A stretch of 64,000 nt of DNA from contig CM041776.1 of the NCBI GenBank assembly GCA_023374045.1, positions 47,560,171-47,624,170 of the forward strand, read 5' to 3'. The DNA is from Limonium bicolor. Its lineage: Eukaryota; Streptophyta; Magnoliopsida; Caryophyllales; Plumbaginaceae. The stretch's first letter is position 1, and every line of letters starts with the position of its first letter. The notes under the pieces are model-generated. The model did no database searches. It saw only the letters and a list, made by a program, of their open reading frames with translations, and was not told where the DNA came from. Made by a program: the position numbers and the translations under genes. Below, in pieces: positions 24,731 to 58,290 of the stretch.

Positions 24731-24812
24731 CTGATGATTCACATTGTCAATTCTCATATCTCAAACGGTTACTAATTTATTTCTTAACTCATTCAATATT
24801 AATTTTTCTCAC
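24731..24812 (-). other. Intron 2 of C gag (82 bp)
   Basis: Donor AAAGG|GTGAGAAAAATT and acceptor AATCATCAG|GATC; AT-rich throughout. D has an 82 bp intron at the same place (45269-45350). Confidence 0.75.
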
Positions 24813-25150: not shown

Positions 25151-25791
25151 CTGCAAGGTAGTGTAACTCGTCGGCCCATGCCGTAGCGGAGTCGATGGCT
25201 AAGCCCGCCATAGAAGCGGTCCACCAAGATCTGGTCAGAATACCCTAGACCTGGCAGAAGACGGAGCAAGGCAGTGAACTCTGAGTAATACTCGTCCACT
25301 GTCATCTTGTCCGACTGCTTAAGCGCATCCAACTGCAAGCGCTTCTTCGTCTGGACATGGGCGGGGTAGTACTTTGCCCGTAGCAAGGCGGTGTACTGCT
25401 CCCAGCCGAACTCTGGGTTGGCCACATGCTCGGCCCTCACCAGCTTCCACCAATCGCCCGCCGCCCCCTTCAGGTAGAAAGCAGCTAAGCGCACCTTGAT
25501 CCCAGCAGGGACATCAAGGGTCTCGAAAGCGGTCTCCAGCTCGGAGATGTACGCCTCAAGCTTGGCGGGATCGGTCTCCCCCTTGAAGTGAGCGGGTCGA
25601 AGATCTGACAGACTCTTCACCCAGTTTGGTTCCCTAGGTTGTGGCGGTGGAGGTGGTGCACCCACACCAGGCTGATAGCCCATGTGCCCTAAAGCGGCAG
25701 CTACGATCTCTGCGATCGTCTGCCCTCCAGGTATCCCTGGAATATCCTCACCCCGGCCGCGACCTCGGCCTCCTCTAGGGCGTCCTGCCAT
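25151..25791 (-). CDS. gag: gag of C, exon 1: capsid
   Basis: Starts at MAGRPRGGRGRGRG, chosen because D's gag begins MSGRPRGRGRGRG; an upstream in-frame Met at 25803 is possible. An arginine/glycine-rich N-terminus precedes a proline run (GAPPPPPQPREPNWVKSLSD). The retrotransposon gag domain follows: LEAYISELETAFETLDV, AAFYLKGAAGDWWKLV, FGWEQYTALLRAKYYP, DKMTVDEYYSEFTALLRLLP and VDRFYGGLSHRLRYGMG. It builds the particle shell. A single missing base after GMG shifts the last residues before the intron 1 donor. Confidence 0.93.
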
Positions 25792-29000: not shown

Positions 29001-30154
29001 AAAAATATGTGTTTAAGGTATTAATGTGATTGTTTTACCCTTGGTTTCTCAAGACACCTTGGATGTGAAGCAAGAAGGACCTCCTCTCTCCCCTTTGAAG
29101 AGTAGAAACAAGCTAGAACAAGGCATAAACATGGAGTCCCATGAGTATATATTTCGGTTATGTGAAGAAAATGGTGAAACCTAGATTTTCTTACACTTTC
29201 TTTACCTTAAGAGAATGGAGATGTCAATGGAGTCTCCAAACTTGAATTTCCTCCTCTAATGGTGGTTTGACTTGGCACCAAAAGAAGCTCTTGATGTTTT
29301 GAAAAGATAGGAAGGAGGAGCTTGAGCTAACTAAGAGGAATATGTATTTTGTTTTGGATTTGGAGCTTAAATGAGCAAGTGGTTTGCAAGAGAAGGTGGA
29401 GCTTTCATGGAGGTGGCTCTAACGTGAATGGAGAAGAGAAAGAGAGCAAGAAATCGTGGGCAACAAGGGAAATGAAGAAGTGAGGAGAGAGGTAAGCTAA
29501 AGTGATATTTATCTTAAAAAGGTGAATATGTTTTTATGCTTTATAACTTACTTATTTGCTTTTCTCTCTTAACTTAGTTAGATAAGTGTGGTGAGTCACA
29601 CTTAAAGAAACCGGCCGCCCCCTTAGTGAATGAGGGTAGTTTAGTCTTTGTTGACCAAATGTCTCACTTATATAGACTTATGTTATAAACTAGCTTAATA
29701 AATTCACTATTCATCAAAAACAAGGCACATTGTTGTGAAATTTTTGATTCCCATTGATATAGACCTCCAAATGTGATACTATATAGTACACATATTAATT
29801 AAAGAGTAATGATGGACATTTAGCCATTCAAAACTCATTTACAAGACAATTTTTCAAAAACGTGCTTTAAGACTCCTTAAGCACATTTGTGTTTTAACTT
29901 GTTTTCAAGCTTGGTTTTCTTTGGTAATTGATTTAAAATGACCATTAGGATATTACTAAGGTCTTGGAACAATATTTGGGTACTCTCCCATATCTCTCCA
30001 AGCTTAGAGCACGTTTTTGCTTAAAACTGCTCTTTGGTGTTTCCTTATATTTTCTTTGATTAGAAATGTTTCTTAATGTTTCTAAGGCATTATTTAGCCT
30101 TCTTATATATCTTAGTTTATCATTTAACACCATATCTAAGTTTGGGGTATTTCA
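26025..30154 (-). repeat. 5' LTR of element C (4130 bp)
   Basis: Direct repeat of 15545-19683. The double-hairpin block is at 26379-26409, the inverted-repeat array at 27495-27830 and the donor-like AAG|GTAAAAC site at about 29038 on the minus strand. Confidence 0.92.
27495..27830. repeat. LTR inverted-repeat array of C, second copy
   Basis: The same GACCGGACTTG / CAAGTCCGGTC units as 17028-17365. Units here are a little more regular because the left copy has lost some bases. Confidence 0.88.
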
Positions 30155-36319: not shown

Positions 36320-39300
36320 TGTAACACCCCTACTACGCGCCTAACAATAAATACAGTCGCAGCGGAAATGACCAACTAAACAACAACTAACAAATTGGTG
36401 TTACAACGCCGTTAACCACCCACGTGGTTAACTAGGCGAATAAATAACAACGTATCGGTCTGATGATCAGACTCCCGAGCAATAGGACCCAACATCCAAC
36501 ATAACCATAACCATTAAAACCGAGTATTTAATTTACATACCGTCTACATCATAACATCCTCCACCAACTCCACCGTCAACTAACAGTACCAAAATAACGC
36601 CACGCCACGGGAGCACAGGCGCATCCCGGGCCAACATCCAAAATAAACAAAAGTATCATGGTCTAAACCTACAACCATTCCGCCTCTTCAAGTCTCATCC
36701 TGCAATGAAAAAGAAAATGGAGCCCCCGAGGGGGTCAGCACCTTTGCTGGTATGGCTAACGCGCAGCCCATCGGCTACCGGGATACGCGCAAACCACTTG
36801 TCATGATAACATGGAGTTCCTTAAAACAACCAACATCATATACATGTATTTATTCACCATAACATAGCACATTAACAATCCATAACACCACAAGGTCGGT
36901 TCTCACAAGGAACATTCCATCATGGTTAGAATACCAAGTGAGCCTAAGGATTTTCATTAATCCCATGTTAAGCTCGTTACATACCTCGTTACCATCCCGT
37001 TATTTGAATGGTTAACTTAATCCCAAGGTGTGTCGGATATAGTGATCCCAAGCACACCGAAATAATATACGTATGCCCCTGTGGCCCGACGTGAGTCAGT
37101 AACTAGCTTTGGATAAGCTAAGGGAAGGTTGAAACCAAATTGGAGAACAACCTATACATACACCAAGAGAGTCGAACCGGATATGATATCGACCCCCGTC
37201 CTCACACGCGTGGCCGGAACAGACCGGACTCCTCACTCCCCCGGTTAGCACTTGTTAGTGATCATACAAGTGATCTTGTTAAGTCACACACAAGCAAGCA
37301 TATTGGTCTTGTTAGACAACCCAAGGGATAGGAGTCACAATAATACATCATCATAATATAAACAACCGTAAACTCTTTTCATGCCTTAATCTTGTAAGGT
37401 CGTAAACACACAGAAAAAGCAAACAGCACACAGGCCGGTGTAAACCGGTAGGCAACAGACTGCAAGAAAACCATACCTTGGTCTTTGCTCCGATTGATTT
37501 CCACCGTAGCCACTCCTATACAACATGGTAACGTTGGTTAATTAACCACTTAACTTCAAATTCTACTAAGTGTTTACATGATTTTATGACATGTTTTATT
37601 GCCTAAACTCATCATTGATTACCTTCATTATAACCCTAGGCTTAACTACTTAAGCCACCTTTTGTTTTGTTTTTTTTTATTATTATTAAGGGTCGACCGA
37701 CCCACCGACCGACAACCTCTGGGTCGGTCCGTTCCAGTAACCTTCTGGTTCAGACAAAAACCTTAGACCGACCCACGACCGACCCATCCTCTATGGGTCG
37801 GTCCTTTGCGAAACTTTTCCCATCCTTTGAAAATTCTCCGACCGACCCAAAGTTGAACCGACCGACCCAAAACCCTCTGGGTCGGTCCATTCCAGAAACA
37901 ATTTCCTTCGTTAAATTTTGCCCGACCGACCCATAGCTAAGCCGACCGACCCAAAACCCTCTGGGTCGGTCCATTGCCGAGACTTTCTGGCTGGCTTAAC
38001 ATGGTCCGACCGACCCAAAACTGGGTCGGACCCTGGTCGGCCCACTACAATTTTACTCTTAATTTGTTCTTTCAACTCCAAACTTTTCCTCATATATCCT
38101 AACATGTTCTAACCTCATTTAGACACTTCAAACACATCTAATCCCTACCTAAACACCATAAACTCATCTTCTAATTCCTTAAGCCTTTACTCATTCCTTC
38201 ACAAAATACTTAACACTTACCATGTTTTCTCCTAGGTTCCTAGTGGTGTTTCATACTTATAAAACTACTATCCCAAAACATTTCTCACCACTACAACATC
38301 ATCTCTAAAGCATTATTTCTCACCAACCTAACCCTAGTTAATGTCTAAGTCCTTTTGTTTACCTAGAACACTCTAAGACATAGTTTCTCTCTAGTAAACA
38401 CTTAGTCATTTTCTAACATCTCTAGTTCACCAAACCTTACATTAATACCTAGAACTCCTTAGATATTTCCTAAATTTTGACATGGGTTCTCCTAGAACAT
38501 TACTAAGCCTAAACACTTTGTTTTCTCCACGAAACACACAGAATACCTAAAATCACCAAGAACACTCTCATACATACACCAAAACTTCACCAAGTTTACA
38601 CTACACCACAATATTGTGCATAATTTAAATTTGCATGGCACTTAGGCCCTTAAATTGCTCAAACCATAAACACTGAATTTCCTCACATATTTATGCCTTT
38701 AACCTGCAAATACACTCAACAACATATATGCCTTTACTAAGCTCTTGAGAACACTTTACTAAGTCATTCACCATTTGCTCTTTAGGTAGTTTTAATAAGC
38801 ATTTATAAGCTCATTTCTCCTAAGGCATTAAACAACATTAGGTTAGTATTTTTACCTCTTTTCCAACCAAACTTCTTTCTTGTTTCCTTTAGAAAACCGA
38901 TAGAGTACTTGATTCTTTGACAAGCTCTAAACAATATACAAACATTATAATGAGTATTCAAGCTATAAGCTCCATCTCATTGTAAACCCTAGTTTCACAT
39001 TATTTCAAAAACATCAATGTGATTGTTTTACCTTGATCTTTGAAGAGAGTTTGAATGTCTATGAAGAGAGGACTCCACCTAGTCCAAGAAGGGTTGAAAT
39101 GAAGCTAGAACAAGGTCACATAAAGAGCTCCTTCAATATGTATTTTCGGTTATGGCAAAAACAAGGAGGAAACTTGATTTTTATTTGAGATTCCTTACCT
39201 AGAAGCCAAGGAGAGTAATAATATGTAGAAGAACAAGCTCAAGCTCCTTCAATGGTGGAACTCCATGGCACCGAAATGGTTGTCTTGAAGTTTTAGGAGA

Positions 39301-40139
39301 TAGAAATGAAGAGCTTGATGCAAGGAAGAGAATGGTGGTGTTTGTTCTTGATTTGGACAAGTGAGGAAGATTTGGCAAGAGATTGAAGTTGTGTTTTAAT
39401 GGTGGTGTGTGTGTTACCGTGAGAGAGAGCAAGAAGGGAGGGAGAAGAAGCTTGCAACCGTGTGAAAGAAAGGCAAAGAAGAGAATGAAGATTGAATTTA
39501 CTTTTTGAAGATATTTAAGCCTTAAAGCAAATAGTACCTATGAGTCACATTTATTTACTTAACAAGTTAACATACTTGGTGACTCCTCACTACAAAAACC
39601 GGCCCCCTATATTAGTATGAGGGTATTTTAGTCTTTGTTTGTCAATTTAATTACTTATACAACATATGTTATAAACTAGCTTGTAAAAATTACTATTCAC
39701 CTATACAAGGCACATAGAAGTGAAATTTTTGATTTCCCACTAATATAGCCACCCAAATGTGATACTATATAGTACACATATATATTTAAGAGTAATGATG
39801 GACATTTAGCCATTCAAAACTCATTTACAAGACAATTTTTCAAAAACGTGCTTTAAGACTTCTTAAAGCACATTTTGTGTTTTAACTTGTTTTCAAGCTT
39901 GGTTTTCTTTGGTAATTGATTTAATATGTTCATTAATATATAATGAAGTCTTGGTAAGCTTACAAGCCTTAACCAAGCTTATCCCAAGCTTAGAGCATTT
40001 TTCGCCCTAAATAACCTTTAAGGTAATTACTTGTATTTTCTTGTTTTAAATTGTTTGCTAATGTTTCTAAGACTCTTTTTAGTCTTAATAAATCATGTTT
40101 TAATGTTTAAATACATTTTAAAAGGTTTGGGGTATTTCA
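36320..40139 (-). repeat. 3' LTR of element D (3820 bp)
   Basis: TGTAACACCCCTACTACG...GGGGTATTTCA on the plus strand. The second copy is 46606-50432. Contains the double-hairpin block at 36718-36751, the inverted-repeat array at 37685-38045 and a donor-like AAG|GTAAAAC at about 39031 (minus strand). Confidence 0.92.
37685..38045. repeat. LTR inverted-repeat array, GACCGACCCA type
   Basis: Five or more units of GACCGACCCA with facing TGGGTCGGTC. The second LTR has the array at 47965-48330. Position within the LTR equals that of the C and A arrays. Confidence 0.88.
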
Positions 40140-40157
40140 ATCTACCCCCCTTAAAAG
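40140..40157 (-). other. Polypurine tract of element D
   Basis: The minus strand reads CTTTTAAGGGGGGTAGAT, abutting the LTR start at 40139. Confidence 0.88.
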
Positions 40158-40479: not shown

Positions 40480-41286
40480 CTAAGAAGTAAACAATGACGG
40501 GTACTTCGCCTTCATCTTGTCTTCCAGCTCCCAGGTGGCCTCCTCGACGTCCTGGTTAGACCAGAGAACCTTCACCAGTCTCACGGACTTATGGCGAGTG
40601 TCTCGAGTCTTAGTGTCCAGAATCTGTACGGGAGTCTCCACTGATCGCATGGTCGGCTCTAGGGTTAGCCTCTCAGGCTGAAGCACATGAGACGGATGAG
40701 ATATATACTTCTTCAACTGGGACACATGAAATACATCATGTACCTTGCCCAGCTCGGCGGGTAGGTCAAGTCTGTAAGCTACCGGGCCGATCCGCTCCGT
40801 CACAACATAAGGACCTACATACTTCGGGCTCAATTTGCCCTTCTGGCCAAAACGAAATACTCCCTTCATGGGGGACACTCTCAAGAATACCTGATCGCCT
40901 ACAGCGAACTCCAGGTCACGTCTGCGTACATCAGCGTACGACTTCTGTCTATCCTGAGCTGCCTTCATGTTAGCCCGGATCTGGCGAACTTCTGCCTGAA
41001 CCTGTTCAAGATACTCTGGTCCTATAATGACCGTCTCACTCGACTCATCCCAGCATAAAGGCGTGCGGCATGGTCTACCGTACAATGCCTGGAAGGGAGA
41101 CATCTTGATCGAAGCGTGATAACTGTTGTTGTAACTAAACTCGATCAGATGTAACTTATCAATCCAACTGGTCTGAAAGTCAAGTGCACATGCACGTAGC
41201 ATATCCTCAAGTGTCTGTATAGTGCGCTCACTCTGACCATCTGTCTGTGGGTGAAACGCCGTACTCAATTTCAGCTCAGTACCCAA
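40480..41286 (-). CDS. pol: pol of D: integrase C-terminus and chromodomain
   Basis: A 268-residue frame. It begins in the integrase core with the catalytic Glu region ([19 protein letters not shown]), then [20 protein letters not shown], the DVRRRDLEFAVGDQVFLRV segment and the GPY module (KYVGPYVVTERIGPVAYRL). It ends with a chromodomain-like tail (VKVLWSNQDVEEATWELED ... YPSLFTS). This end is intact in D and serves as the guide for the broken copy in C. The C-terminal fold places the element in the chromovirus branch of Ty3/gypsy, where the chromodomain guides integration to chromatin. Confidence 0.93.
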   Translation of the reverse strand: MGTELKLSTAFHPQTDGQSERTIQTLEDMLRACALDFQTSWIDKLHLIEFSYNNSYHASIKMSPFQALYGRPCRTPLCWDESSETVIIGPEYLEQVQAEVRQIRANMKAAQDRQKSYADVRRRDLEFAVGDQVFLRVSPMKGVFRFGQKGKLSPKYVGPYVVTERIGPVAYRLDLPAELGKVHDVFHVSQLKKYISHPSHVLQPERLTLEPTMRSVETPVQILDTKTRDTRHKSVRLVKVLWSNQDVEEATWELEDKMKAKYPSLFTS

Positions 41287-42553
41287 TGCCTCTCGGGTAG
41301 ATCTCCAATATCTGGATAAGAATCTGGTATCTCTATCCGATACAATCGTCTTGGGTACCCCATGATGTCTTACTATCTCTCTCTGTCAAAGAGCTCTGCA
41401 AGCTTAGCCACTTTCCAGGTGTCCTTCATCGGAATGAATCGGGCCACCTTGGTCAGTCGGTCTACCACCACCCAAATCATATTCAGACCTCCCCTTGTAG
41501 GCGGAAGCCCTACTACAAAATCCATAGATATGTCATAAATTTCTTCCACTCCGGCACTGGCATTGGCTGCACCATACCACCAGGCCGTCGGTGCTCAAAC
41601 TTGACCTTCTGACAAGTGAGACACCTCAACACATAGTCATTAATATCCTTTTTCATACCAGTCCACCAAAAATAACGTTTCATACCCTTATACATCTTTG
41701 AAGCTCCAGGGTGAATCGAAGTCGTAGAACTATGGGATTCACTGAGTATGCGCTCCTTCAGCTCAGCGCTACTCCTCGGTATACACAACCGGCCATTAAG
41801 CCTAATCAGGTCATCATCGTGGAGTCTGAAGTCGTACTTCTGACCCTCGAATGTGCCATCAATAAGCTTCTGTCTAATCTCCACCATATACTGATCTGCC
41901 ATCTGAGCACTCCGCACCTCTTCAACCAAGCTAGTATGAGAGACTAGCGAATGGAGAGAGTGAGCTCGGCGACTCAGTGCGTCAGCTACCACATTTGCTT
42001 TTCCCTCCTTGTATTGTAAGTTAATATCATAATCATTTAAGAATTCAACCCACCTTCTCTGCCTCATGTTCAACTCTTTCTGAGTGAACAAGTATTTCAA
42101 ACTCTTGTGGTCAGAATAGATCGTCACACTTACCCATACAAATAATGTCGCCACATCTTCAATGCGAAGACATGGCACCCAATTCCAAGTCGTGGGTAGG
42201 ATAGTTCTCCTCGTGCTTCTTCTTAGCTGTCGGGAGGCGTATGCTACGACCTTCCCGTGTTGCATCAACACACACCCATACCCTCTGCCTGATGCGTCGC
42301 AATAGACCTCAAAACCATCTGGACCGTCTGGTATAGTCAGGACCGGTGCAGATGTCAGAGCATCCTTGAGTCTCTGAAAAGAACTCTCACAGTCGTCTGT
42401 CCACTCGAATGGTGCATCCTTCTTCATCAAGGAAGTCATCGGCTTCGAGACACTGGAGAAGTCCTTCACAAATCTCCTATGTATAACCTGCCAGACCGAG
42501 GAAGCTCCTGATATCGGTAACTGTCTTCGGCCTTGGCCAGGTGCGCACAGCAT
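41287..42553 (-). CDS. pol: pol of D: RT thumb, RNase H and integrase N-terminus/core
   Basis: The frame at 41513-42553 has RNase H residues in [19 protein letters not shown] and VADALSRR. The acidic residue of the middle motif falls in a locally shifted stretch (about 42180-42230). The integrase HHCC follows ([20 protein letters not shown] ... CLTCQKV). The frame then shifts at about 41530, just before the first catalytic Asp (the ISMDF equivalent). In 41287-41512 the second catalytic Asp is readable as TIVSDRDT near 41335. Activity would be as for the C copy. Confidence 0.9.
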
Positions 42554-42704
42554 CTATCTTTGCCGGATCCACAGCGATCCCGGCCTCAGAAATGACATGT
42601 CCAAGGAAGGACACTTGATTCAACCAAAACTCACACTTTGAAAATTTTGCATACAGCTGATTCTTCTCAATGTCTGTAGCACATCTCTCAGGTGGCTTTC
42701 ATGC

Positions 42705-43538
42705 TCACCTCTCGATTTCGAATATATATATGTCGTCGATGAAGACTACCACTGATTTGTCCAACTGATCTTGGAACAAACGGTTCATTAAGTCCATAAA
42801 CTTCGCTGGTGCATTTGACAAGCCAAACGGCATAACTGTGAACTCATAATGCCCATACCTAGTTCTGAATGCTGTTTTCTCAATGTCACTGTCACGGATG
42901 GCAATCTGATGATATCCTGACCGTAGGTCTATCTTAGAGAATACTGATGCTCCCCTAAGCTGATCAAATAGATCGTCGATGCGTGGTAAGGGGTAACGGT
43001 TCTTCACCGTAACAGCATTCAGCTCTCGATAATCAATACACAGGCGGAGGCTACCGTCCTTCTTCTTCACGAAGAGGACCGGCGCTCCCCATGGTGAAAC
43101 ACTAGGGCGGATGAAGCCCTTGTCCAGTAGGTCTCTCAGCTGCTCCTTGAGCTCTGTCATTTCTGCTGGAGCCATACGATATGGTGCTTTCGCAATTGGT
43201 CCGGTGCCCGGAACCAAGTCGATCTCAAACTCAACTTCCCGTGGTGGCGGCATGCCCGGCAGTTCCTTAGGAAATACATCAGGAAACTCCGAGACTACCG
43301 GCACATCTGTGCTAAACTCTGGATCTCTCTCTATGTCCTGGACATAGCAGAGGTATACATCATTTCCCCGTCGTAACTCACGATACATGGCCATGGCGGT
43401 GATGATCTGTGTCGAAGGCTCCCTGGGCCTCTGGCGGTAAGATATAGTAACCCCAGATGGACTCCTAAGAAGCAGTCGATGCTCGGCACATAGGATTCTG
43501 CCCTTGTACCGCTCCAACCAGTTCATCCCGACAATCAC
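42705..43538 (-). CDS. pol: pol of D: protease end and reverse transcriptase
   Basis: A 277-residue frame. It starts at the protease end ([20 protein letters not shown]) and linker ([18 protein letters not shown]). The RT fingers and palm follow: [58 protein letters not shown] and the catalytic VVFIDDI. The frame is lost just after FIDDI. The RT thumb (about 42560-42700) continues in another frame into 41513-42553. This is the most complete RT in the window. Confidence 0.94.
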
Positions 43539-43861
43539 ATCAAACCCAGTCCGTCGAACTCTATCAAGTCGATCGGAAACTCCTCATCCATGATTCGAAC
43601 AATAGCATCTCGGTAGTAGCGGGTACACTCTGATCTGCTCTTTCGACGGGAGAGTGACCACGAAGTCTGGCATCTCTTCACCGTCTAACCCCACCGCCTC
43701 TTCGCAAATGATAGCGAAATAATGTGTGTGAGGCTCCAGAGTCGAACAAATCGATGCATCCACGCCATTCACTGGAAAGGTACCGGTGAGGATTGTGCCG
43801 CTCTTGCCGGCTTCTGCCTTATTGCAGACACTCAGTATACCTCCCGTTCCGAGTGCACAGC
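43539..43861 (-). pseudogene. pol: pol of D: protease N-terminus, begins at a splice acceptor
   Basis: From 43861, directly after an AG at 43862-43863, the minus strand reads GCALGTGGILSVCNKAEAGK and then [17 protein letters not shown], closely parallel to C exon 5. The DSGAS active site is present at nucleotide level but shifted by one base (about 43735). Then VGLDGEEMPDFVVTLPSKEQ follows. It has no convincing start codon of its own. Joined to exon 3 (ending CCAG) it reads through in frame as PGCALGT, matching PGHGLGT in C. Confidence 0.82.
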
Positions 43862-44040
43862 CTAGTTTAATTGGCAAACGTATAAGTATACGGTAGTAAC
43901 ACGATTGATATACTCCAAAACACATCCCTTTATTTATTAACATACTTCCTTACACCATAAGTTGGTTACATTGTGGATATTGCTACGTATAGCATCCTTA
44001 ACACATAACTGGATTAATAGATTACATGATTACATAGGGC
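43862..44040 (-). other. Spacer between AlkB stop and pol acceptor (D)
   Basis: 179 AT-rich bases without a conserved frame, ending TTAAACTAG. Corresponds to 23373-23526 in C. Confidence 0.7.
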
Positions 44041-44778
44041 TTAAAACTGCCTGAAAGTCAAATTCAAACGTCCTGGTTTCATATGTGTGGCATTGATCAC
44101 TGCCGACGGTGCGGTATTCAGTTTGATCTTCTTGATACCGTGGTATAACATCCTTGATTGTCCTCCCATTATTAACACATCACCTGATTTCAACACTAGC
44201 TTCTTGCGAGATCACCACGCTTCTGCTCGCCATAGATAAACACTGCTGTGTCACCAATGGACCAAGACACCACGGGTACTCCCTTACTTAGAGACTCGGG
44301 TGACTCGTCCTTATCTTGGTGCAATCCTAGTCTTCCACCTTTCTGGTAGAAGTTCACAATACATAGGTCCGCTTTAACACTTGGAATTGAATCTTTTTCA
44401 GCTTGCTGAGCAATTCCTACGGTGTGGTTAACAACCGCAAGGAACTCCTCAGGTATACCTGGTACAGTTGCTCCATCTTCAGCTCGCACGTCTTGATATG
44501 ACTTGGTGTAAGGATTCCAGTCCTTACCCATGCACATCATCTTCAGCTTCATCTTCGATCCGCTTGCGTATTCGGGTGTGTAGAATCCTCCTAGTGCTGC
44601 TCCAAGTTCATTGCATCGCCTGATGATGTGGATTTGCGCTTCGGGTGTCAGGTATCCATTTAAGAGTACCATACCTGGTTGGATAACCTGACATTGCTCC
44701 ATTGGAAAGTCGGTGATGCTGATGGTGTTTCTTCAGGGTTTGGTGTGGGCGGGATTGGATAACAGATATTGAAGGTTC
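44041..44778 (-). CDS. AlkB/ALKBH1-type 2-oxoglutarate dioxygenase exon of element D
   Basis: The best-preserved AlkB copy. One frame of 168 residues (44196-44702) covers most of the domain: QVIQPGMVLLNGYLTPEAQ, GGFYTPEYASGSKMKLKMM, PGIPEEFLAVVNHTVG, ADLCIVNFY (2OG-binding N117/Y119), RLGLHQDKDE (iron ligands H128 and D130) and VPVVSWSIGDTAVFIYGEQK. One shift at about 44200 separates this from the end: SGDVLIMGGQSRMLYHGI with the distal iron His, and KPGRLNLTFRQF, then TAA at 44041. RLNLTFR equals the AlkB signature whose arginines bind 2-oxoglutarate and shape the active site. The exon is 738 bases, about the size of an entire AlkB domain. AlkB enzymes oxidatively remove alkyl or methyl marks from RNA or DNA; the substrate here is unknown. 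Location between nucleocapsid and protease suggests delivery as a Gag fusion. Confidence 0.94.
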
Positions 44779-44926
44779 CTAAGGTTTTCAACATTGTCTA
44801 GTTTAGGTGTCTTTTATATTATTCCTTAACTCGTTAGTTAGGTGGTTGTACATTTAGACTCTCTAATACACTCATGCATGAAATGCGGTAAGCAATCACT
44901 TTCTCATGTAACAGTTTAGGCGGTAC
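44779..44926 (-). other. Intron 3 of D gag-AlkB (148 bp)
   Basis: Donor CCAG|GTACCGCC, acceptor AAAACCTTAG|GAACC, with TTACCGCAT and CATGCATG inside as in C. Splicing gives PG-TFNICYPIP in frame with the AlkB exon start region. Confidence 0.75.
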
Positions 44927-45268
44927 CTGGTCTAGAAGAGGAGCCTGGCGCCTCAGACCGGTCCACCACGTTCAGGGCGGCCTTGCCGGACCCCGTACCC
45001 TTCCCCTTCTGGGCATCCGTGTACTTCCTGTCAGAGGGCTGCTGGGTGATCGCCTTCGGGCTATCAGTGGTCGCGGTAGTCTTACCCTTCCACTGACCCT
45101 TTGGCCTGTAGTTCCTACTGTTGGGGTTGTGCCAGCACTCAAACTCACGGTGCCCCATCTTCTCACAGTAAACGACACTTCACGTCATTCCCTTGCAGTC
45201 CTTGCCGGGGTGGTCTCCATTGCACCACTTGCAGTAAAAGTGGCGCTCCGGTCCAGAACCCGCGCTAG
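44927..45268 (-). CDS. gag: gag of D, exon 3: tandem zinc knuckles
   Basis: First finger CKWCNGDHPGKDC, second finger YCEKMGHREFEC with its leading Cys region disturbed by an extra base. Then a basic, threonine/serine-rich tail (KGKTTATTDSPKAITQQPSD) that ends SSRPG at the donor. Length of 342 bases, a multiple of three. Binds element RNA as the nucleocapsid part of Gag. The same finger spacing as in C and E shows common descent. Confidence 0.85.
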
Positions 45269-45350
45269 CTGCGTTCACAATACATCATCAATACTCACTT
45301 CCAACTCAAGAACTTATATCTCAATTTATCACACATGTTTAGGTAATTAC
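45269..45350 (-). other. Intron 2 of D gag (82 bp)
   Basis: Donor CTAAGG|GTAATTACC and acceptor GAACGCAG|CTAGC; same length and place as in C. The frame match across it needs one missing C in the CCCC run just before the donor. Confidence 0.72.
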
Positions 45351-45608
45351 CCTTAGGCGGGGAGAGCGTAAAGGCTTCGCCGCATACGCGTACGTAAGCT
45401 TCAGAGGCTCCTCAGCTGTGGTGGTCTGGGCTTGGCCCTTATCACCCTGATGCTGATTCTTCTGGGGCTGAGGGTAGTGCTTCTTCTTCTTCCCTCCCCC
45501 GTATCCTTGCTGGACCTGGCCCTCGTTTGTGGCCTTGCGCTTGTGCGCATTCTCCTCGTCCCTCAGACGGACGGTAATTTCCACCTTAGCAGCGGCATGA
45601 TAGCACTC
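45351..45608 (-). CDS. gag: gag of D, exon 2: basic linker
   Basis: Begins ECYHAAAKVEITVRLRDEEN and continues without a stop through KKKKHYPQPQKNQHQGDKG to EEPLKLTYAYAAKPLRS before the intron 2 donor. Highly basic and glutamine-rich, probably unstructured and RNA-binding. The open frame runs across the exon 1 border only if intron 1 is removed. Confidence 0.83.
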
Positions 45609-45712
45609 CTGAATTTTAGGACGTCAGTCATGCCCCGCAAAACAAAACTCACCAACTCACATTAACATTCACTATCAGTATTAACTGATTCATATCACGG
45701 TATTTTAATTAC
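45609..45712 (-). other. Intron 1 of D gag (104 bp)
   Basis: Donor CTTGCAG|GTAATTAAAA, acceptor CTAAAATTCAG|GAGTGC. Phase 0; exon 1 is exactly 225 codons to this donor. Contains in-frame stops. Confidence 0.8.
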
Positions 45713-46387
45713 CTGCAAGGTAGTATACTCAGCTGGTCCCATCCCGTAGCGAAGACGGTAGTTGAGACCATTGTAGAACCGGTTCACCAACACTCGGTTC
45801 GAATATCCAAGGTCTGGCAACAGGTGGATAAGGCCGGTGAATGCTGTGTAGTAGTCATCAACCGTCATCTTATCCCCCTGCCTCAGACTGTCAAGCTCGA
45901 GGCGCTTGGCCTCCTGCACATGTACCGGGTAGTACTTGGCTCGCAGTAGAGCCGTGTACTCCCTCCATCCAAACTCAGGATCAGCTATCCTGTCCTCCCT
46001 CACCAGTTTCCACCAACTCTGTGCCGACCCCTTCAAGTAGTAGGCGGCAAGTCGGACCTTAGCCTCAGCAGGTACGGCCAAAGTCTCGTAGGCGGTCTCC
46101 AGCTCGGAGATGTACGCCTCTAGCTTACGGGGATCGGTCTCCCCATGGAATGATGGCGGCCTCAAGTCAGCCAACGCCTTGACCCAGTTGGTCTCTCTCG
46201 GCGGTGGTGGTGGTGGCTGAACTCCGGGCTGATGCCCCTGCTGCACCGCAGCTACAATCTGGGGGACCATCTGGGCTACGGCGGCTGCAACTGCCTCAGC
46301 CATAGTCTGTGCCGTAGGGTTCTCGCCCTGGTCACCCATATCTCCAGTACCGCGTCCGCGGCCTCGACCTCGCGGTCTACCTGACAT
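45713..46387 (-). CDS. gag: gag of D, exon 1: capsid
   Basis: Starts MSGRPRGRGRGRGTGDMGDQ, the only ATG that keeps the basic N-terminus. A proline stretch (PPPPPPRETNWVKALADLRP) leads into the capsid domain: LEAYISELETAYETLAV, AAYYLKGSAQSWWKLV, FGWREYTALLRAKYYP, DKMTVDDYYTAFTGLIHLLP, VNRFYNGLNYRLRYGMGPAE and YTTLQ at the intron 1 donor. Continuous over 225 codons. It forms the particle shell and, by the layout, carries either AlkB or Pol at its end. Confidence 0.95.
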
Positions 46388-46605: not shown

Positions 46606-49600
46606 TTAACACCCCTACTACGCGCCTAACAATAAATACAGTCGCAGCGGAAATGACCAACTAAACAACAACTAACAAATTGGTGTTACAACGCCGTTAA
46701 CCACCCACGTGGTTAACTAGGCAGAATAAATAACAACGTATCGGTCTGATGATCAGACTCCCGAGCAATAGGACCCAACATCCAACATAACCATAACCAT
46801 TAAAACCGAGTATTTAATTTACATACCGTCTACAACATAACATCCTCCACCGTCAACTAACAGTACCAAAATATAACGCCACGGGAGCACAGGCGCATCC
46901 CGGGCCAACATCCAAAATAAACAAAAGTATCATGGTCTAAACCTACAACCATTCCGCCTCTTCAAGTCTCATCCTGCAATGAAAAAGAAAATGGAGCCCC
47001 CGAGGGGTCAGCACCTTTGCTGGTATGGCTAACGCGCAGCCCATCGGCTACCGGGATACGCGCAAACCACTTGTCATGATAACATGGAGTTCTTTTAAAA
47101 CAACCAACATCATATACATGTATTTATTCACCATAACATAGCACATTAACAATCCATAACACCACAAGTCGGTTCTCACAAGGAACATTCCATCATGGTT
47201 AGAATACCAAGTGAGCCTAAGGATTTTCATTAATCCCATGTTAAGCTCGTTACATACCTCGTTACCATCCCGTTATTTGAATGGTTAACTTAATCCCAAG
47301 GTGTGTCGGATATAGTGATCCCAAGCACACCGAAATAATATACGTATGCCCCTGTGGCCCGACGTGAGTCAGTAACTAGCTTTGGATAAGCTAAGGGAAG
47401 GTTGAAAACCAAATTGGAGAACAACCTATACATACACCAAGAGAGTCGAACCGGATATGATATCGACCCCCGTCCTCACACGCGTGGCCGGAACAGACCG
47501 GACTCCTCACTCCCCCGGTTAGCACTTGTTAGTGATCATACAAGTGATCTTGTTAAGTCACACACAAGCAAGCATATTGGTCTTGTTAGACACCCAAGGG
47601 ATAGGAGTCACAATAATACATCATCATAATATAAACAACCGTAAACTCTTTTCATGCCTTAATCTTGTAAGGTCGTAAACACACAGAAAAGCAAACAGCA
47701 CACAGGCCGGTGTAAACCGGTAGGCAACAGACTGCAAGAAAACCATACCTTGGTCTTTGCTCCGATGATTTCCCCACCGATGCCACTCCTATACAACATT
47801 GGTAACGTTGGTTAATTAACTTAACTTAACTTCAAATCTACTAGTGTTTACATGATTTTATGACATGTTTTATTGCCTAAACTCATCATTGATTACCTTC
47901 ATTATAACCCCTAGGCTTAACTACATAAGCCACACTTTTGTTTTTTTTTTTTATTATTATTAAGGGTCGACCGACCCACCGACCGACCCAACCTCTGGGT
48001 CGGTCCGTTCCAGTAACCTTCTGGTTCAGACAAAAACCTTAGACCGACCCACGACCGACCCGACCCATCCTCTATGGGTCGGTCCTTTGCCGAAACTTTC
48101 CCATCCTTTGAAATTCTCCGACCGACCCAAGTTGAACCGACCCCAAAACCCTCTGGGTCGGTCCATTCCAGAACAATTTCCTTCGTTAAATTTTTGCCCG
48201 ACCGACCCATAGCTAAAGCCGACCGACCCAAAAACCTCTGGGGTCGGTCCATTGCCGAGACTTTCTGGCTGGCTTAACATGGTCCGACGACCCAGACCCA
48301 AAACTGGGTCGGACCCTGGTCGGCCCACTACAGATTTTACTCTTAATTTGTTCTTTCAACTCCAAACTTTTTCCTCATATACTAAACATGTTCTAACCTC
48401 ATTTAGACACTTCAAACAAATCTAATCCCTACCAACACACATAAAACTCATCTTCTAATTCCTTAAGCCTTTACTCATTCCTTCACAAAATACTTAACAC
48501 TTACCATGTTTCTCCTAGGTTCCTAAGTGGTGTTTCATACTTATAAAAACTACTATCCAAAACATTTCCTCACCACTACAACATTACCTCTAAAGCATTA
48601 TTTCTCACCAACCTAAACCCTAGTTAATGTCTAAGTCCTTTTGTTTACCTAGAACACTCTAAGACATAGTTTATATTCTCTTAGCAAAACACTTAGTCAT
48701 TTCCTAACATTCTAGTTCCACCAAACCTTGCATTAATACCTAGAACTCCTTAGATATTTCCTAAATTTTGACATGGGTTCTCCTAGAACATTACTAAGCC
48801 TAAACACTTTGTTTTCCTCCACGAAACACACAAGAATACCTAAAATCACCAAGAACACTCTCATACACCAAAACTTCACCAAGTTTACACTAACAACCAA
48901 AGTATTGTGCATAATTTAAATTTGCATGGCACTTAGGCCCTTAATTGCTCAAACCATAAACACTGAATTTCCTCACAATATTTATGCCTTTAACCTGCAA
49001 ATACACTCAACAACATATTGTCCTTTACTAAGTCTCTTGAGAACACTTTACTAAGTCATTCACCATTTGCTCTTTAGGTAGTTTTAATAAGCATTTATAA
49101 GCTCATTTCTCCTAAGGCATTAAACAACATTAGTTAGTATTTTTACCCCTCTTTTCCAACCAAACTTCTTTCTTGTTTCCTTTAGAAACCGATAGAGTAC
49201 TTGATTCTTTGACAAGCTCTAAACAATATACAAACATTATAATGAGTATTCAAGCTATAAGCTCCATCTCATTGTAAACCCTAGTTTCACATTATTTCGA
49301 AAACATCAATGTGATTGTTTTACCTTGATCTTTGAAGAGAGTTTGAATGTCTATGAAGAGAGGACTCCACCTAGTCCAAGAAGGGTTGAAATGAAGCTAG
49401 AACAAGGTCACATAAAGAGCTCCTTCAATATGTATTTTTCGGTTTATGGCAAAACAAGGAGGAAACTTGATTTTTATTTGAGATTCCTTACCTAGAAGCC
49501 AAGGAGAGTAATAATATGTAGAAGAACAAGCTCAAGCTCCTTCAATGGTGGAACTCCATGGCACCGAAATGGTTGTCTTGAAGTTTTAAGGAGATAGAAT

Positions 49601-50432
49601 GAAGAGCTTGATGCAAGGAAGAGAATGGTGGTGTTTGTTCTTGATTTGGACAAGTGAGGAAGATTTGGCAAGAGATTGAAGTTGTGTTTTAATGGTGGTG
49701 TGTGTGTTACCCGTGAGAGAGAGCAAGAAGGGAGGGAGAAGAAGCTTGCAACCGTGTGAAAGAAGAAGCAAAGAAGAGAATGAAGATTGAATTTACTTTT
49801 TGAGATATTTAAGCCTTAAAGCAAATAGTACCTATGAGTCACATTTATTTACTTAACAAGTTAACATACTTGGTGACTCCTCACTACAAAACCGGCCCCC
49901 TATATTAGTATGAGGGTATTTTAGTCTTTGTTTGTCAATTTAATTACTTATAAAACACATATGTTTATAAACTAGCTTGTAAAAATTACTATTCACCTAT
50001 ACAAGGCACATAGAAGTGAAATTTTTGATTTCCCACTAATATAGCCACCCAAATGTGATACTATATAGTACACATATATATTTAGAGTAATGATGGACAT
50101 TTAGCCATTCAAAACTCATTTACAAGACAATTTTTCAAAAACGTGCTTTAAGACTTCTAAAGCACATTTTGTGTTTAACTTTTTTCAAGCTTGGTTTTCT
50201 TTGGTAATTGATTTAATATGTTCATTAATTATAAATGAAGTCTTGGTAAGCTTACCAAGCCTTAACCAAGCTTATCCCAAGCTTAGAGCATTTTTCGCCC
50301 TAAATAACCTTTAAGGTAGTTACTTGTATTTTCTGTGTTTTAAATTGTTTGCTAATGTTTCTAAGACTCTTTTTAGTCTTAATAAATCATGTTTTAATGT
50401 TTAAATAACATTTTAAGGTTTGGGGTATTTCA
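46606..50432 (-). repeat. 5' LTR of element D (3827 bp)
   Basis: Direct repeat of 36320-40139. The terminal TG has been lost or misread (TTAACACCCC). Double-hairpin block at 46994-47024, inverted-repeat array at 47965-48330, donor-like site at about 49322. Confidence 0.92.
47965..48330. repeat. LTR inverted-repeat array of D, second copy
   Basis: GACCGACCCA / TGGGTCGGTC units as in 37685-38045, with a few lost or duplicated bases. Confidence 0.88.
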
Positions 50433-51535
50433 AAAAGCCTTAATATTTTCCTGCTCAGTCAGTCTGATGTAAATACTAAGATTAATTCCTTTGTGGTACC
50501 TAGACTATCTCAAAATCATATGTTGATAATTACCCAAATAAATGCAGTCGTTTGTCGCGCAAAGCATTTAGCAATATTAGTTGAAAGGAATTAAAACAAG
50601 TTAAATGAGAGAAACAGGTGATAAATATTAATTTACGTAATATTAGAAATCAAACCCCCATCCTAGGATACAAAAGAAATTACTCAGACATTAACGGAGA
50701 TAAGAAATTACACAGATAGATTTTGACATTAATTCAGAGGAAGAACTGGTCTGTTCTCGCTCTCCAGCTGCTCTTCTATTTCTTTTGTTACTGCACTGGT
50801 GAGTGTTTGGAATGATTGGTGATACAGGAGGAATATAAGTGGAAGGGAATGGATGAGTGTGGTGAGCGAATTCTTCAGACTCCCGTCGTGCGTGGTATCT
50901 TTTTTGCAGTAATGGTGTTGGGTTTAATAGAGAATTGAGGAGGCAAATCCGTACGTATTAATCGATTGCAGTTGATTGCAGTCTGAGTGCTTCATTTATT
51001 GCAGGGGGACAGAGAGCTGGAGTGATTTAAGGTAGGCGGTGCGGCGAAGTAGATGGATAAGAATCCATTTGCAGAACGACGCGAGGAAGAAGGAGACAGG
51101 CGCGTCTCAGATCTGGAATTTTTACACGCGTCCGCGTGGTGTCCTCCTGAACACCGCCTCATATACACGCGGTTTGCTTACTTACTCCCTCACGTCCGCC
51201 TGCTGGTCCGCCTGGCTAACAGGCGGTTGCTTGGGTGAGTCGTCCGCGCCTAATATTGGCGGTTGCCCATGCATTGACCTATTTTCCTTCCAACTTTGAC
51301 CGGCTCTAGATTATTCGTTTGGGCTCCGTTTTTTGAGCCGTCTGCGCCTATGCGTTCGTCTCTTCGTGTACTTTCGTCCTAGCTTGGCTTTTCCTCATGT
51401 TTAAACCAATAAATTTGTGAGATATCAATAAAACATAAACTAGAGGAAAAACATACGATAATGAGAAATGAGCAAAAAAAGTGCTGATATAATACATGAA
51501 ATACACCCATAACATGCTCATTTAGACACTTATCA
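50433..51535 (-). repeat. 5' LTR of T2, inner piece
   Basis: Resumes at AAAAGCCTTAAT after D and ends CACTTATCA at 51535. Matches 30278-31447. CCTTC at 51536-51540 is the T2 target duplication. Confidence 0.88.
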
Positions 51536-53925: not shown

Positions 53926-54490
53926 GCAGAAAGAAAGAAGAGAATGAATATTGAAGGAGATGATGGTGGAGCAACCTCTGGCGGTTACTGCAAGAAGGGA
54001 AGAAATTCTTTGAAAAGAAGGAGGGGCAGAAGGATTTCTATGGTCAGAAGACGAAGGAGCAGGTCCCTCGTCTGACCGGCCCAGCTATTGATACTCAGCC
54101 ACTAAGAAAACACCACCTAGAGGCAATAAGCCAACCCGACGTCACTATTACTGTAAACGCTGTGGAATGATCACCTAGGCGTAGATTGCGCAGGAAGGAA
54201 GGTGGAGTGCCGCTATTGCAAAAAGGAAGGTCACAGGAAGTTTGAATGTTTTTTTTCCAATCCAGGGAGCTGAGTATACAAGGGAGCTAGAGGTTCACAA
54301 AGGACACCAGTTATTGAGGCGGGCGGACCAAGAGTCGGTCAGGCACCGCAGAACAACACCTATGCTAGAGGACCGGCAAGACAGCCATCCTCATCCGGGA
54401 GTCGGAAGGGAAAGGAGATAGTTCCATGAGGAAATACCCTGTACACAGTGGGAACTTCAGGCGCTGAGGCTAGCGCTCAGCGCGAAACCG
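53926..54490 (+). pseudogene. gag: gag of element E, C-terminal part with zinc knuckles
   Basis: Continues the gag cut by T1. After a basic stretch with stops, two fingers are readable in shifted frames at about 54140-54255: YYCKRCG...DHLGVDC and CRYCKKEGHRKFEC, joined by AGRKVE as in C and D. A serine/arginine tail follows, then NTLYTVGTSGAEASAQRET ending at a donor-like CCG|GTAAGCC near 54490. The zinc-knuckle segment appears to be uninterrupted by the 82 bp intron seen in C and D, but decay makes this uncertain. Confidence 0.75.
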
Positions 54491-54727
54491 GTAAGCCTAG
54501 AACTTAAACCTATGCATGATGCATAAATGTGTGTTTATATTCATCAATCGATGAAACTTGTATGTATTAGTAAGTATCAGAATTTAGAGAGACCTAACTT
54601 AGGTAACCTCTCACCTAATGGGATACTTCCATATTTATTTTCCTTACCTATGAGACCGAGATCACCTGAGCCTATGAGCGAAGGTCTAGAATATCCAGAG
54701 GCATAATGCCAAGTACTTTGACCCGGC
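54491..54727 (+). other. Probable decayed intron 3 and AlkB lead-in of E
   Basis: Begins with GTAAGCC and carries TATGCATGATGCATAAATG near its start, resembling the CATGCATG block of intron 3 in C and D. Ends with sequence readable as CQVL-PGM just before the AlkB remnant. Confidence 0.5.
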
Positions 54728-55065
54728 ATGATCCTACTCAGGAAAAACTTAACTATAAATGAACGAATAACTATGATAAATGAATATGGAACTTGGGAAT
54801 AGGCCTTGAAGGATTCTATATTCCAGGATACGGGAGTGGATCAAAACTTAAATTATATGATGAGTATGGGTAAGGATTAGGATTAGGATACCAGTTATAT
54901 CCTTCTCCATAGGAGATGATGCTGAGTTTTATGAACGGTGATCAGAAAAGGATGAAAAAAGGCAAATAAAATTGTTTTTTTTAAATCAGGAGACGTGTTG
55001 GTATTTGGTGGAGAGTCCAGATTAGTGTACCATAGAATTAAGAGTATTAAACTGTAAATAGCCTT
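54728..55065 (+). pseudogene. AlkB-domain remnant of element E (internal deletion)
   Basis: The same captured domain in an old state. The start reads GMILLRKNLTINERITMINE, aligning with GMVLLNGYLTPEAQIHIIRR of D. Next come FYIPGYGSGSKLKL in another frame and MMSMGKD, followed by stops. At about 54908 the sequence jumps to SIGDDAEF, so the part that should hold N-x-Y and H-x-D is missing. The later part keeps SGDVLVFGGESRLVYHRI-like codons in shifted frames, with the distal His. It cannot be active. It shows that the AlkB gene was present before the families of C, D and E separated, or that it was acquired more than once at the same place. Confidence 0.82.
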
Positions 55066-57763
55066 GGAATATATGGTGTGAGATAGTACAGTGAGGAATA
55101 GTAAGTTAATTTTGCTTGGACCGCCGTAGAGCGATATTAACTGTCCAAACTTACAGTAACTACAAAATATGACCTGCCTAAGAGACGAGCAGATGTCATG
55201 AAAAGGAATACATGAATTATCAAAAGAGTTCACGTAAAGAGCAAACACTGAAATTTTATGGGATACCCAGGCACCGAGCTTACCGCTCAGTGCGGGACTA
55301 CAAAATCTTACAATCCTTTATTAACTTCGCGAGAAGATAGTGCGAAACCTTGAAATATAACAATAGAGAAACAAAATCTCAAAAATATAGCTAAACATCC
55401 AATATGGATAAGCACAAGCTTTGAATACCTGAACAAATACCAAGGGTCTCAGCTAGTATTACTATAGTGACAATGCTGGACTCTTAATAATAAAGGAGAG
55501 AGAACAAACTTTAAATCTATATTTTCTAAAGTCAGGGGAATGACCTAATTAGCAAAACCAAATGCTATATATACATACAATTCGGAGGTTGTAAACCTAA
55601 AACATTGAAGAGTATTAATACATTTCAGAAGACTAAGTAACATTACATATACCTACCCTACTTGAGACACATGTCCTACACTATCTTTATGGTTCTATAC
55701 GAGCATATGTCTTCTATGACAGCTCAATTGATGAATGCAAAAAAAAAAAGAGCGCAAGAAATCAGATAAGGTCAAACCCCTTAAGTAATATAAATTTTAA
55801 TACAAACATGGTAGCGAATAACTCTCTTTAACACTTACAGTGAAGGTAGTATAAGTTATATTAAGAGTTTGAATTAACATGTACATTAAAAGTGGGAGGA
55901 AGTTATATTAAAAGTAGTAAAACATACCCGTTGGCTTGTAACAACTGTTTTACCCGTAAATATCCTAACGTTATATGCTAATCCTTGTGATTCTAAATTC
56001 CTTATTTGATACACCTAATTGACCTATTTTTGGAAGCCATTGAGTTGTGGATTAACCACGTTTCTAAGAGATAGAACAAACAATAAGCTTTGATTGTTCG
56101 TTACCAAACCGAAAGATTCAACTGGAAACCCTTAGTTTGAGATGGTACTAATATTAAGAGATACGTAACCTAGGATGAACATATGGTTTACCTGAATTAT
56201 GGAGTTTAGATGAAATAAGGAAAGCCAAGCTTTAAGGCGGAGGAAATAGTACTTTATGGAACTGTAATTGTGGATGGAGTTATGAAAACTTTTCTTGAAG
56301 TCTAACTGTGACTGTCTTGCTCCAAGTGATGGTAATCAAAGTATAGGCAATAATCAAGCCCTGATAAGTGAAATATTAGATAAGCCTTTTAAAGAGAAGA
56401 GAGTATTCTAGGGTATGCAAGTCCATGACGGAACTTATTACTTGTATGATGGATTTAAGAGTTGAAATGATTGATGGATATAATTATTAAACAGTATGAG
56501 CCTAGATGTTTTAATAAGAATTTACTTTTGTGCCAAGAAGAAAAACTGGCTTCCCCGCTTGATGATTTGATCAAAGGAACTTAGTTCCGGGGATTAAGGA
56601 ATACACTAGATTCAAGTATAGGTTTATAACAGTTATTGGAATAGATGTATAACAGTCGAGGAAAAAGGTACATGTAGTAGTCACCACGACACAAAGTTCG
56701 ATTAGATAAAATTTGGAAAATGACAATTATGTGGTTGTTTGATATTTGACTTGGGAGGTCGAACTTGATCCTGGTCAGATCCAGGGAAAACCAAACACAA
56801 AATGGTGTGGAAGGATAGTTCAACACTGATGCTGACCCCGGCAGAGTTGGATGATTCCTGAGACTCCTTACAAGTGGTCACAAATATTGCTGCGATACGT
56901 AAGTATCTATTCTTAACCTAAGATAAAATTTGACTAATAAGTACATGAGATGTAGAAGGTGTAAATTAAGAGTTAAGTTGTCCAGGTTACCCCGAGAAGA
57001 CTAAATAGCTAAAACAGCTCCGCGTATGTCGGAAAAATAACCAACTGTGAGGGAAATACTAACCATTATCATCCCATGAACCATGTTAATAAAATAGAAG
57101 ATCAAGAGACAATTACCTGTAATAAGTAATCTCAAGCTAGCTTCTAAGTTATGGCCATATTGCCATCTGGAGAGAACGATAGACTTCCATGTCTTTCTTT
57201 ATGAATTCAAACCCAATATATTAAATGGGAACCTACCTATAAACATGGTAGAATATAAAGAGTTAAAACATTATACTAATACTCACATGAGTTGATTTAC
57301 AACCGCAAGAACATGTCCAATTGAGAGAAAATTGTACCTTATTAGAAACCTTAGCATGAACCCTACTGGGGTATAACAAATGAACAGACAATAGTGATCG
57401 TGTATGCACTACTGACAATTGGTGAATCAATAATATCAAGAAATCTTTCTATAATATACATAAGATGCATAGCTCGATCATAGCTCATACTTTACTTTGA
57501 GAATGAAATCGAATATGGTGAGAGTAAACTCAAATACCAAAATCACAAGATGATGACCTACAGGTCAAAGAGAGAGATGTTAATGTGCCCCAATATTAAT
57601 ATAAACCCAAGCGCCGAAAATTATAACTACAAGCGGCGATTAAGGGAAGTGTCTTACAGAAGATAGTTTAAACAAGCCATAAAGTAATATTGACAACGTA
57701 CAGGATGGTAGATTACTTCACCCATACATACAGAATTTAAATATAAAAGCATACTAATACAAT
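55066..57763 (+). other. Unrecognised stretch where pol of E should lie
   Basis: About 2.7 kb, AT-rich, stops in all frames. I could not find protease, RT, RNase H or integrase-core motifs on either strand. It may be very decayed pol or replaced sequence. Confidence 0.5.
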
Positions 57764-58290
57764 ATGGAACATATCAAAGAATGCTTAGATTCTTGGGGGC
57801 TATACCTAGTAAGCAGACAAAAGTCATATACCGATGTCCGTAGGAGAGACCTCAAGTTCGCAGTAGGCGATCGAGTCTTCCTTAGAGTTTTACCTATGAA
57901 GGAAATCTATTTTAAGATTTGGGCAGAAGGGCAAGCTAAGCCGAAGTATGTAGGACCGTACCTTATTACGGAGTGAGTGGGCCCATTAGATTACAGGTTA
58001 GATTTACCTGTTGAGCGTGGGAGAGTGCACAATATGTCCCACATTTCATAGCTAAAGCAGTTTGTGCCTCATCCATCACATATCTTAGAGCCCGAGACAC
58101 TCGAGCTAGATCCTACACTTAGATATAAGGAAACCCCAGTTCGAATCTTATACTCCTAGACTAGGGAGACCAGGAACAAGACCATTGGAGTGGTCACGGT
58201 TCTGTGGTCAAACCACGACATCGAGGAGGCGACATGGGAGTTAGAAGACTCCGTGCGAGACAAGTATCCAACACTTTTCTCTTTGTTTTG
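57764..58290 (+). pseudogene. pol: Integrase C-terminus and chromodomain remnant of E
   Basis: Readable pieces: DVRRRDLKFAVGDRVFLRV, KPKYVGPYLITE, then, after a stop, GPLDYRLDLPVERGRVHNM, PHPSHILEPETLELDPTLRY and VVTVLWSNHDIEEATWELED. These match the end of D's pol piece by piece, with stops and shifts between. The frame passes into the second PPT-like module. It confirms the chromovirus identity of E. Confidence 0.85.

Follow-up and report, generated by a model that had tools for sequence, protein, structure and literature searches.

The stretch of Limonium bicolor DNA analysed here (64,000 nucleotides of contig CM041776.1, assembly GCA_023374045.1; hereafter the window, in whose coordinates all positions are given) contains two LTR retrotransposons, elements B and D, and pieces that probably belong to an older third one, element C. 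An AlkB gene or its remnant is found in each of them. Element D, in which this gene was noticed, lies on the minus strand and is made up of the following features, given in the direction of reading.

46607..50433, minus strand: 5' LTR (96.4% blastn identity to 36322-40140; K2P 0.020 without gaps)
45713..46387, minus strand: gag exon 1, capsid (PF03732, Retrotrans_gag, E 1.2e-18; end ...YTTLQ/GTAATT)
45609..45712, minus strand: predicted intron 1 (GT-AG, 104 bases, 64.4% AT)
45351..45608, minus strand: gag exon 2 (41.9% AT; one apparent internal frameshift, by eye)
45269..45350, minus strand: predicted intron 2 (82 bases, 67.1% AT)
44927..45268, minus strand: gag exon 3 (CCHC-type residues, by eye; donor AG/GTACC, phase 1)
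43862..44926, minus strand: predicted intron 3 with AlkB inside (1,065 bases; removal brings gag and protease into one frame)
44041..44778, minus strand: AlkB segment (from candidate acceptor TTAG/GA to stop codon; frameshifts near 44732 and 44203)
40480..43861, minus strand: pol (PR, RT, RNase H, integrase, SH3_Tf2-1, sub-cut-off chromodomain; several broken ORFs)
36322..40140, minus strand: 3' LTR, preceded by the polypurine stretch AAGGGGGG

Pfam matches in element D cover gag, protease, RT, RNase H, the integrase zinc finger and SH3_Tf2-1. Their order inside the LTR pair, with gag followed by PR-RT-RH-INT, is the one by which Ty3/gypsy elements are recognized, and four bases of the target site (CTTT) agree by eye. 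The RT gave us a Tekay-like impression, which we take as presumptive. A chromodomain follows SH3_Tf2-1 at the expected position with a score under the cut-off (PF00385, E 6.3e-4, 20.1 versus 25.1 bits). According to the portion of a survey available to us, chromodomains are present in 94% of plant chromoviruses and in none of the other groups surveyed (PMC6317226), and for this reason we regard element D as a chromovirus-like Ty3/gypsy retrotransposon of about 14 kb. The first-pass annotation, made from the letters of the window, had named it a Ty3/gypsy chromovirus; the order of the pol domains upholds the first half of that name, and the sub-threshold chromodomain reduces the second half to a likeness.

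The same annotation described a complete ALKBH1-type demethylase between gag and protease. Its location is borne out by the Pfam matches and the LTR pair, in B as well as in D. The motifs NFY, HQDKD, YHG and RLNLTFR follow one another in this order on the minus strand of D, as had been claimed, and the 178-residue open stretch at 44196-44732 matches PF13532 (2OG-FeII_Oxy_2) with an E value of 1.7e-27 (97.4 bits against a cut-off of 31.2). Among PDB sequences the nearest is rice OsALKBH1 (5xeg, E 1.8e-49). These two E values rule out a chance motif match, and with it the lack of profile similarity that the first-pass annotation had named as the outcome that would speak against it. At E ≤ 0.001 there are 21 matches to solved sequences, each of them OsALKBH1, AlkB or ALKBH1. 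E. coli AlkB (E 3e-9) ranks before human ALKBH1 (E 8.5e-4), so that the gene is ALKBH1-type in plant naming, after OsALKBH1, but closer to E. coli AlkB than to the human protein whose name it shares; closeness to OsALKBH1 is judged here among solved structures, with one plant host protein in the comparison. The iron ligands HxD...H and the 2-oxoglutarate residues RxxxxxR are present in both B and D when the pieces are read separately.

Completeness, then, applies to the motifs and not to the reading frame. The span 44041-44778 has to be read across all three minus-strand frames: a frameshift at about 44203 divides an N-terminal piece with NFY and HQDKD from a C-terminal piece with YHG and RLNLTFRQF, which runs into a stop codon ending at 44041, and a second frameshift near 44732 lies upstream of the AlkB domain. 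Position 44778, at the top of the span, is the first base past a candidate splice acceptor.

Element B has the same organization on the same strand.

26025..30154, minus strand: 5' LTR (primer-site-like sequence TGGTATCAGAGC 5 bases downstream)
25151..25791, minus strand: gag exon 1 (PF03732, E 5.5e-18)
25065..25150, minus strand: predicted intron 1 (86 bases)
24731..24812, minus strand: predicted intron 2 (82 bases; GT donor between 24813 and 24812)
23373..24394, minus strand: predicted intron 3 with AlkB inside (1,022 bases; gag-to-PR junction in frame)
23527..24263, minus strand: AlkB segment (four frameshifts; catalytic motifs retained)
15545..19683, minus strand: 3' LTR (96.4% blastn identity to the 5' LTR; K2P 0.021 without gaps)

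The LTRs of B begin with TGAAATACCCC and finish with TTACA, and no clear target-site duplication was seen in its flanks. We take TGGTATCAGAGC to be the usual tRNA-Met primer site; D carries an altered version of it. The LTRs of D start like those of B, and the final bases after GTTA differ between the two D copies. In the integrase C-terminal region of B, short broken ORFs only were found.

Database searches with the AlkB protein returned 971 relatives. Among the 120 listed, three proteins, P0001, P0002 and P0003, stand apart at 60-67% identity, and the others are at most 49% identical. P0001 is intact (210 residues). A search with gag gave a single match, P0121, among 3,001 candidates. P0121 and P0001 are each located on an ena contig of 26,621 bases, presumably one and the same contig, in which case it would hold a fourth gag-AlkB element. 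P0002 and P0003 have no tie to an element via the contig of the gag match; the sequence of P0003 upstream of the domain is partly common to C and B. NCBIfam AlkB models scored P0001, P0003 and the D piece well under their cut-offs, and no AlkB equivalog was called. The pol search with a 571-residue piece of B yielded at least 7,970 candidates, of which the 120 listed are 46-59% identical and come, where taxa are named, from plants; none of these 120 lies on a contig of the same size as any of the AlkB contigs, and the search covered pol ORFs of up to 999 residues. Scans of IMG/VR with P0001, with AlkB alignment A1 and with gag alignment A2 produced 2, 303 and 41 pattern matches, respectively, and a scan of prokaryote genomes with P0003 produced 13; none of these matches was confirmed.

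A tblastn search of the window with the intact proteins P0001 and P0003 also hit the plus strand at 54.5-55.1 kb, where the remnant of a third AlkB copy adjoins a CCHC-like piece. The following plus-strand pieces probably represent one old, fragmented element C that was split by later insertions.

11932..12423, plus strand: gag (40% identity with the gag of D)
54140..54399, plus strand: CCHC-type gag piece (E 2e-8 for 54169-54399; 54140-54163 alone E 0.58)
54527..55114, plus strand: AlkB remnant (P0003 as tblastn query, E 3.5e-14; two stops and seven frameshifts where aligned)
57815..58135, plus strand: pol remnant, integrase C-terminal region (tblastn; putatively associated with the gag and AlkB pieces)

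In a frameshift-aware alignment with P0003 the AlkB remnant of C scored 326, compared to 29-49 for 12 shuffled queries; in this alignment the iron-binding HxD stretch was not found and RLNLTFR was likewise not aligned. An LTR-like pair at 12462-13936 and 52479-53920 (98-99% identical) brackets B and D. It seems to split the old element C, and the insertions appear to be nested. Another LTR-like pair is present at 225-2261 and 9435-11495 (97.3% identical); neither the gag query (P0121) nor the pol query (P0124) matched its 7-kb interior, and this element is perhaps non-autonomous. At 33836-35441 on the minus strand, two overlapping open frames of 342 and 212 residues resemble, by eye, the gag of another kind of retrotransposon.

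All AlkB copies in the window are dead. Aligned with P0001, D has one frameshift and B has four, with no in-frame stop in either. The longer P0003 brings out three further shifts in D, one close to the start of the segment and two before it, as well as two stops ahead of the segment in B. The copy in C is broken as well.

The AlkB genes of B and D are nonetheless related in a way that a single chance insertion would not produce. In a self-comparison of the window they are located at the same place in both elements and are 75% identical in DNA over 653 alignment columns. Together with the remnant in C this rules out the single-copy insertion that the first-pass annotation had named as a way for its reading to fail; its view that the gene belongs to the element is sustained by the two elements and the remnant, and by the equal size of the contigs of P0121 and P0001. 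When the B-D alignment was divided into windows of 60 columns, the 13 windows touching AlkB were identical at 540 of 780 columns, and at 475 of 660 once the two border windows (36/60 and 29/60) were set aside. The two windows upstream and the two downstream were identical at 56 and 50 of 120 columns, respectively. AlkB is thus conserved while its flanks are not.

The substitution pattern agrees with this. The AlkB proteins of B and D agree at 143 of 201 residues, and dN/dS is 0.142 (95% interval 0.07-0.22), with values of 1 or more in none of the 992 usable bootstraps out of 1,000. The corresponding values are 0.084 for gag exon 1 and 0.042-0.072 for three pieces of pol, and on this ground AlkB is constrained, though somewhat less than gag and pol; the ratios are rough because dS is near saturation. 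The raw synonymous difference (pS) of AlkB is 0.63, which falls within the range of gag and pol (0.62-0.74) and indicates that AlkB diverged together with the element. We are highly confident that this retrotransposon lineage carried an AlkB gene under selection.

The placement of AlkB inside a predicted intron was absent from the first-pass annotation. Short AT-rich stretches bounded by GT and AG interrupt the gag frame at matching positions in B and D, and we predict three introns in the gag region, the third of which contains AlkB. This third intron begins at AG/GTACC after the CCHC region and ends with TAG just ahead of the protease; when its ends are joined, gag continues in one open frame into the protease in B and D alike, as far as the short translated stretch extends. 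The splice sites were chosen by eye, so the agreement in phase is weaker than it appears. Base composition follows the predicted boundaries: introns 1, 2 and the left part of intron 3 have 64-72% AT and the spacer after AlkB 67-68%, compared to 40-46% for the gag exons and 54% for AlkB of B and D. In element C there is no such contrast (63.0% AT in the AlkB remnant versus 65.3% in the stretch before it). The database gag P0121 runs to ...FTTLQ and ends after VLS, just past the position of the intron-1 donor, as fits reading into intron 1. Taken together, the gene probably sits in a spliced intron of gag-pol. In view of an ATG just upstream of the segment in D and of the P0003 gene call, which starts upstream of the segment, AlkB could have its own start codon. 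The end of the left part of predicted intron 3, just upstream of AlkB (24263-24394 and 44778-44926), is partly alike in B, D and C, and P0003 has an open frame there too, so that the N-terminus assigned to AlkB is provisional.

Both elements have a second candidate acceptor, TTAG/GA, immediately before the AlkB segment, and AlkB carries its own stop codon. Joined to this acceptor, the gag donor of D leads in frame into AlkB (...SSRPG-TFNICYP...) until the shift near 44732. In B the same junction is out of frame by one base. That B is decayed is an excuse for this and not a proof, and the renewed break of the frame in D also counts against a fusion, so we propose the synthesis of a Gag-AlkB protein only tentatively.

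The enzyme itself could be modeled with confidence from the intact relative P0001. The AlphaFold2 model (36-row alignment) reached a pLDDT of 92.9 and a pTM of 0.90. Its top Foldseek matches in the PDB were the OsALKBH1 structures 5xeg and 5xoi (TM 0.91-0.92 by query, 51% identity), with E. coli AlkB next (TM 0.84), among the best 50 of 166 matches at E ≤ 0.001. In a 14-row tree, B, D and P0001 to P0003 group (80/85) beside rice OsALKBH1, and eight database AlkB proteins, probably bacterial, are set apart (100/100). Within the group only the pair of P0001 and P0002 is resolved (90/91). The three sequences tied to elements (B, D and P0001) are not separated as a clade from P0002 and P0003; a single change between the two sets suffices in just 2% of the bootstrap trees. 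With OsALKBH1 as its one plant host protein, the tree neither dates the capture nor identifies the donor host; if P0002 or P0003 were host genes, more than one capture would be favored.

The explanation that we consider best, and hold to be rather probable, is that an AlkB gene of the OsALKBH1 type lies between gag and protease of a chromovirus-like Ty3/gypsy lineage, in a predicted third intron, and that the enzyme likely demethylates the RNA or single-stranded cDNA of the element. The gene would have been taken from a host ALKBH1-like gene, probably before B, C and D separated. One primary transcript may be spliced in two ways. Removal of the whole third intron would give Gag-Pol, and use of the acceptor just upstream of AlkB would give Gag-AlkB, by which the enzyme would reach the particle, the site of reverse transcription. 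The genome would be the unspliced RNA, and this would account for the persistence of the introns. In the portion of the report at hand, OsALKBH1 is described as a 6mA demethylase that removes 6mA from single-stranded DNA and R-loops (PMC10469495), from which we infer that single-stranded DNA, for example the first cDNA strand, or RNA is the likely substrate here. That the substrate is nucleic acid of the element itself is the somewhat likelier case. The fullest version of this proposal is more speculative, and we consider it conceivable rather than probable: alternative splicing would yield both Gag-Pol and Gag-AlkB, each particle would pack the copying machine together with a demethylase to clean up the RNA template or newly made single-stranded cDNA, and the element would be the first retroelement with a packaged nucleic-acid demethylase as well as a second, independent capture of AlkB by a plant Ty3/gypsy element.

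Three other explanations have to be weighed. The enzyme might be a repair protein that reverses alkylation damage in packaged RNA or cDNA instead of removing methyl marks set by the host. The active site shares HQDKDE with E. coli AlkB, the matches that rank directly behind OsALKBH1 are AlkB repair enzymes, and a repair role has been proposed for the AlkB proteins of plant RNA viruses (as cited in the part of PMC9289625 available). The closest relative is nevertheless the reported 6mA demethylase (PMC10469495, same portion), and fold and sequence do not discriminate between substrates; we consider a repair function unlikely, though a serious competitor.

Slightly less likely still is that AlkB forms an ORF apart, has a start codon of its own and is translated as a free enzyme from an intron-retained or separately initiated RNA, to act on nucleic acid of the host or of the element. 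The available part of the orchid report, in which AlkB comes from a separate ORF (PMC9289625), provides a precedent, and the AlkB stop codon, the out-of-frame gag-AlkB junction in B, the ATG that adjoins the segment in D and the further 27 residues over which P0003 is open upstream would all fit. Against it, no start codon at a shared place was seen in B and D (compared to P0003, D has its two frameshifts and B its two stops upstream of the acceptor), and the AT content drops from 64-68% to 54% at about the acceptor in both elements.

It is very improbable, finally, that AlkB is passenger DNA, that is, a host copy carried without function or captured separately by B and D, with the low dN/dS reflecting selection in host genes. 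LTR elements with transduced host fragments are well known, all three copies in the window are broken, and P0002 and P0003, which lack a tie to an element, sit among the element rows of the tree (P0002 with P0001). Separate capture is, however, not expected to yield both the same location in B and D and an AlkB pS within the gag and pol range, conservation in frame through the divergence needs selection inside the element, and the upstream sequence that P0003 has in common with C and B speaks for P0003 being a copy from an element.

Mobile and viral genomes with an AlkB of their own are known from plants. As cited in the accessible part of PMC9289625, AlkB domains occur in plant RNA viruses of the families Alphaflexiviridae, Betaflexiviridae and Closteroviridae, and one has been described in a potyvirus P1 (PMC9452765, seen in part); these viruses resemble the present elements in carrying the enzyme and differ in that they do not reverse transcribe. 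Rice OsALKBH1 (LOC_Os03g60190; 5xeg, 5xoi) is the closest solved relative by both sequence and fold and has the same catalytic residues; it is a host gene, whereas the element copies form the group beside it. With respect to introns, plant LTR elements generally lack them, Ogre and EVADE being the notable exceptions in the available part of a 2025 review (PMC12786077). In both of these LTR retrotransposons splicing leads to different RNAs (PMC6317226 and PMC12786077, each in part). EVADE is a Ty1/copia element according to the same extracts, whereas the present elements have three predicted introns in the gag region, lying within gag and between gag and PR, the third with an enzyme gene.

The first-pass annotation knew of no standard Ty3 element with an AlkB gene; this does not hold, since one of another lineage and with another AlkB subfamily has been published from Phalaenopsis (PMC9289625). 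The accessible portion of that work reports a screen of 121 angiosperm genomes in which two Phalaenopsis species were the only ones to have LTR elements with AlkB-type domains. Gypsy_Pa_2799 is there described as a 25-kb element of the Tat/Ogre type with dual RNase H and gag-pol in one ORF, whose separate ORF2 encodes paALKBH5-like, a protein that removes m6A from RNA in vitro. Beyond this orchid case, no LTR element with an AlkB domain appeared among the open-access PMC papers listed, judged by title and the start of the abstract, and the orchid element is the only one named in the part of the 2025 review at hand. Membership of the present elements in the orchid Ogre-AlkB family can be ruled out: no ALKBH5-type match is among the 21 solved sequences, and AlkB does not lie apart from a single gag-pol ORF. 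Both are plant Ty3/gypsy LTR elements with an AlkB-family dioxygenase that retains the residues for metal and 2-oxoglutarate binding. The orchid gene is an ALKBH5-type ORF2 of an Ogre element, whereas the genes described here are OsALKBH1-type and lie in a predicted intron of a chromovirus-like element of about 14 kb. A repeated capture of AlkB, with a different subfamily and apparently a different retrotransposon lineage involved, suggests that plant retrotransposons face methyl marks or methyl damage on their nucleic acid as a real and recurrent obstacle and repeatedly meet it with an enzyme of their own. Judged by its subfamily, the enzyme is directed at DNA 6mA or alkylation more likely than at mRNA m6A, which would bring the question of plant 6mA into the retrotransposon life cycle. 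What is new compared to the orchid element is the subfamily, the position and the predicted expression of AlkB and, apparently, the retrotransposon lineage that carries the gene.
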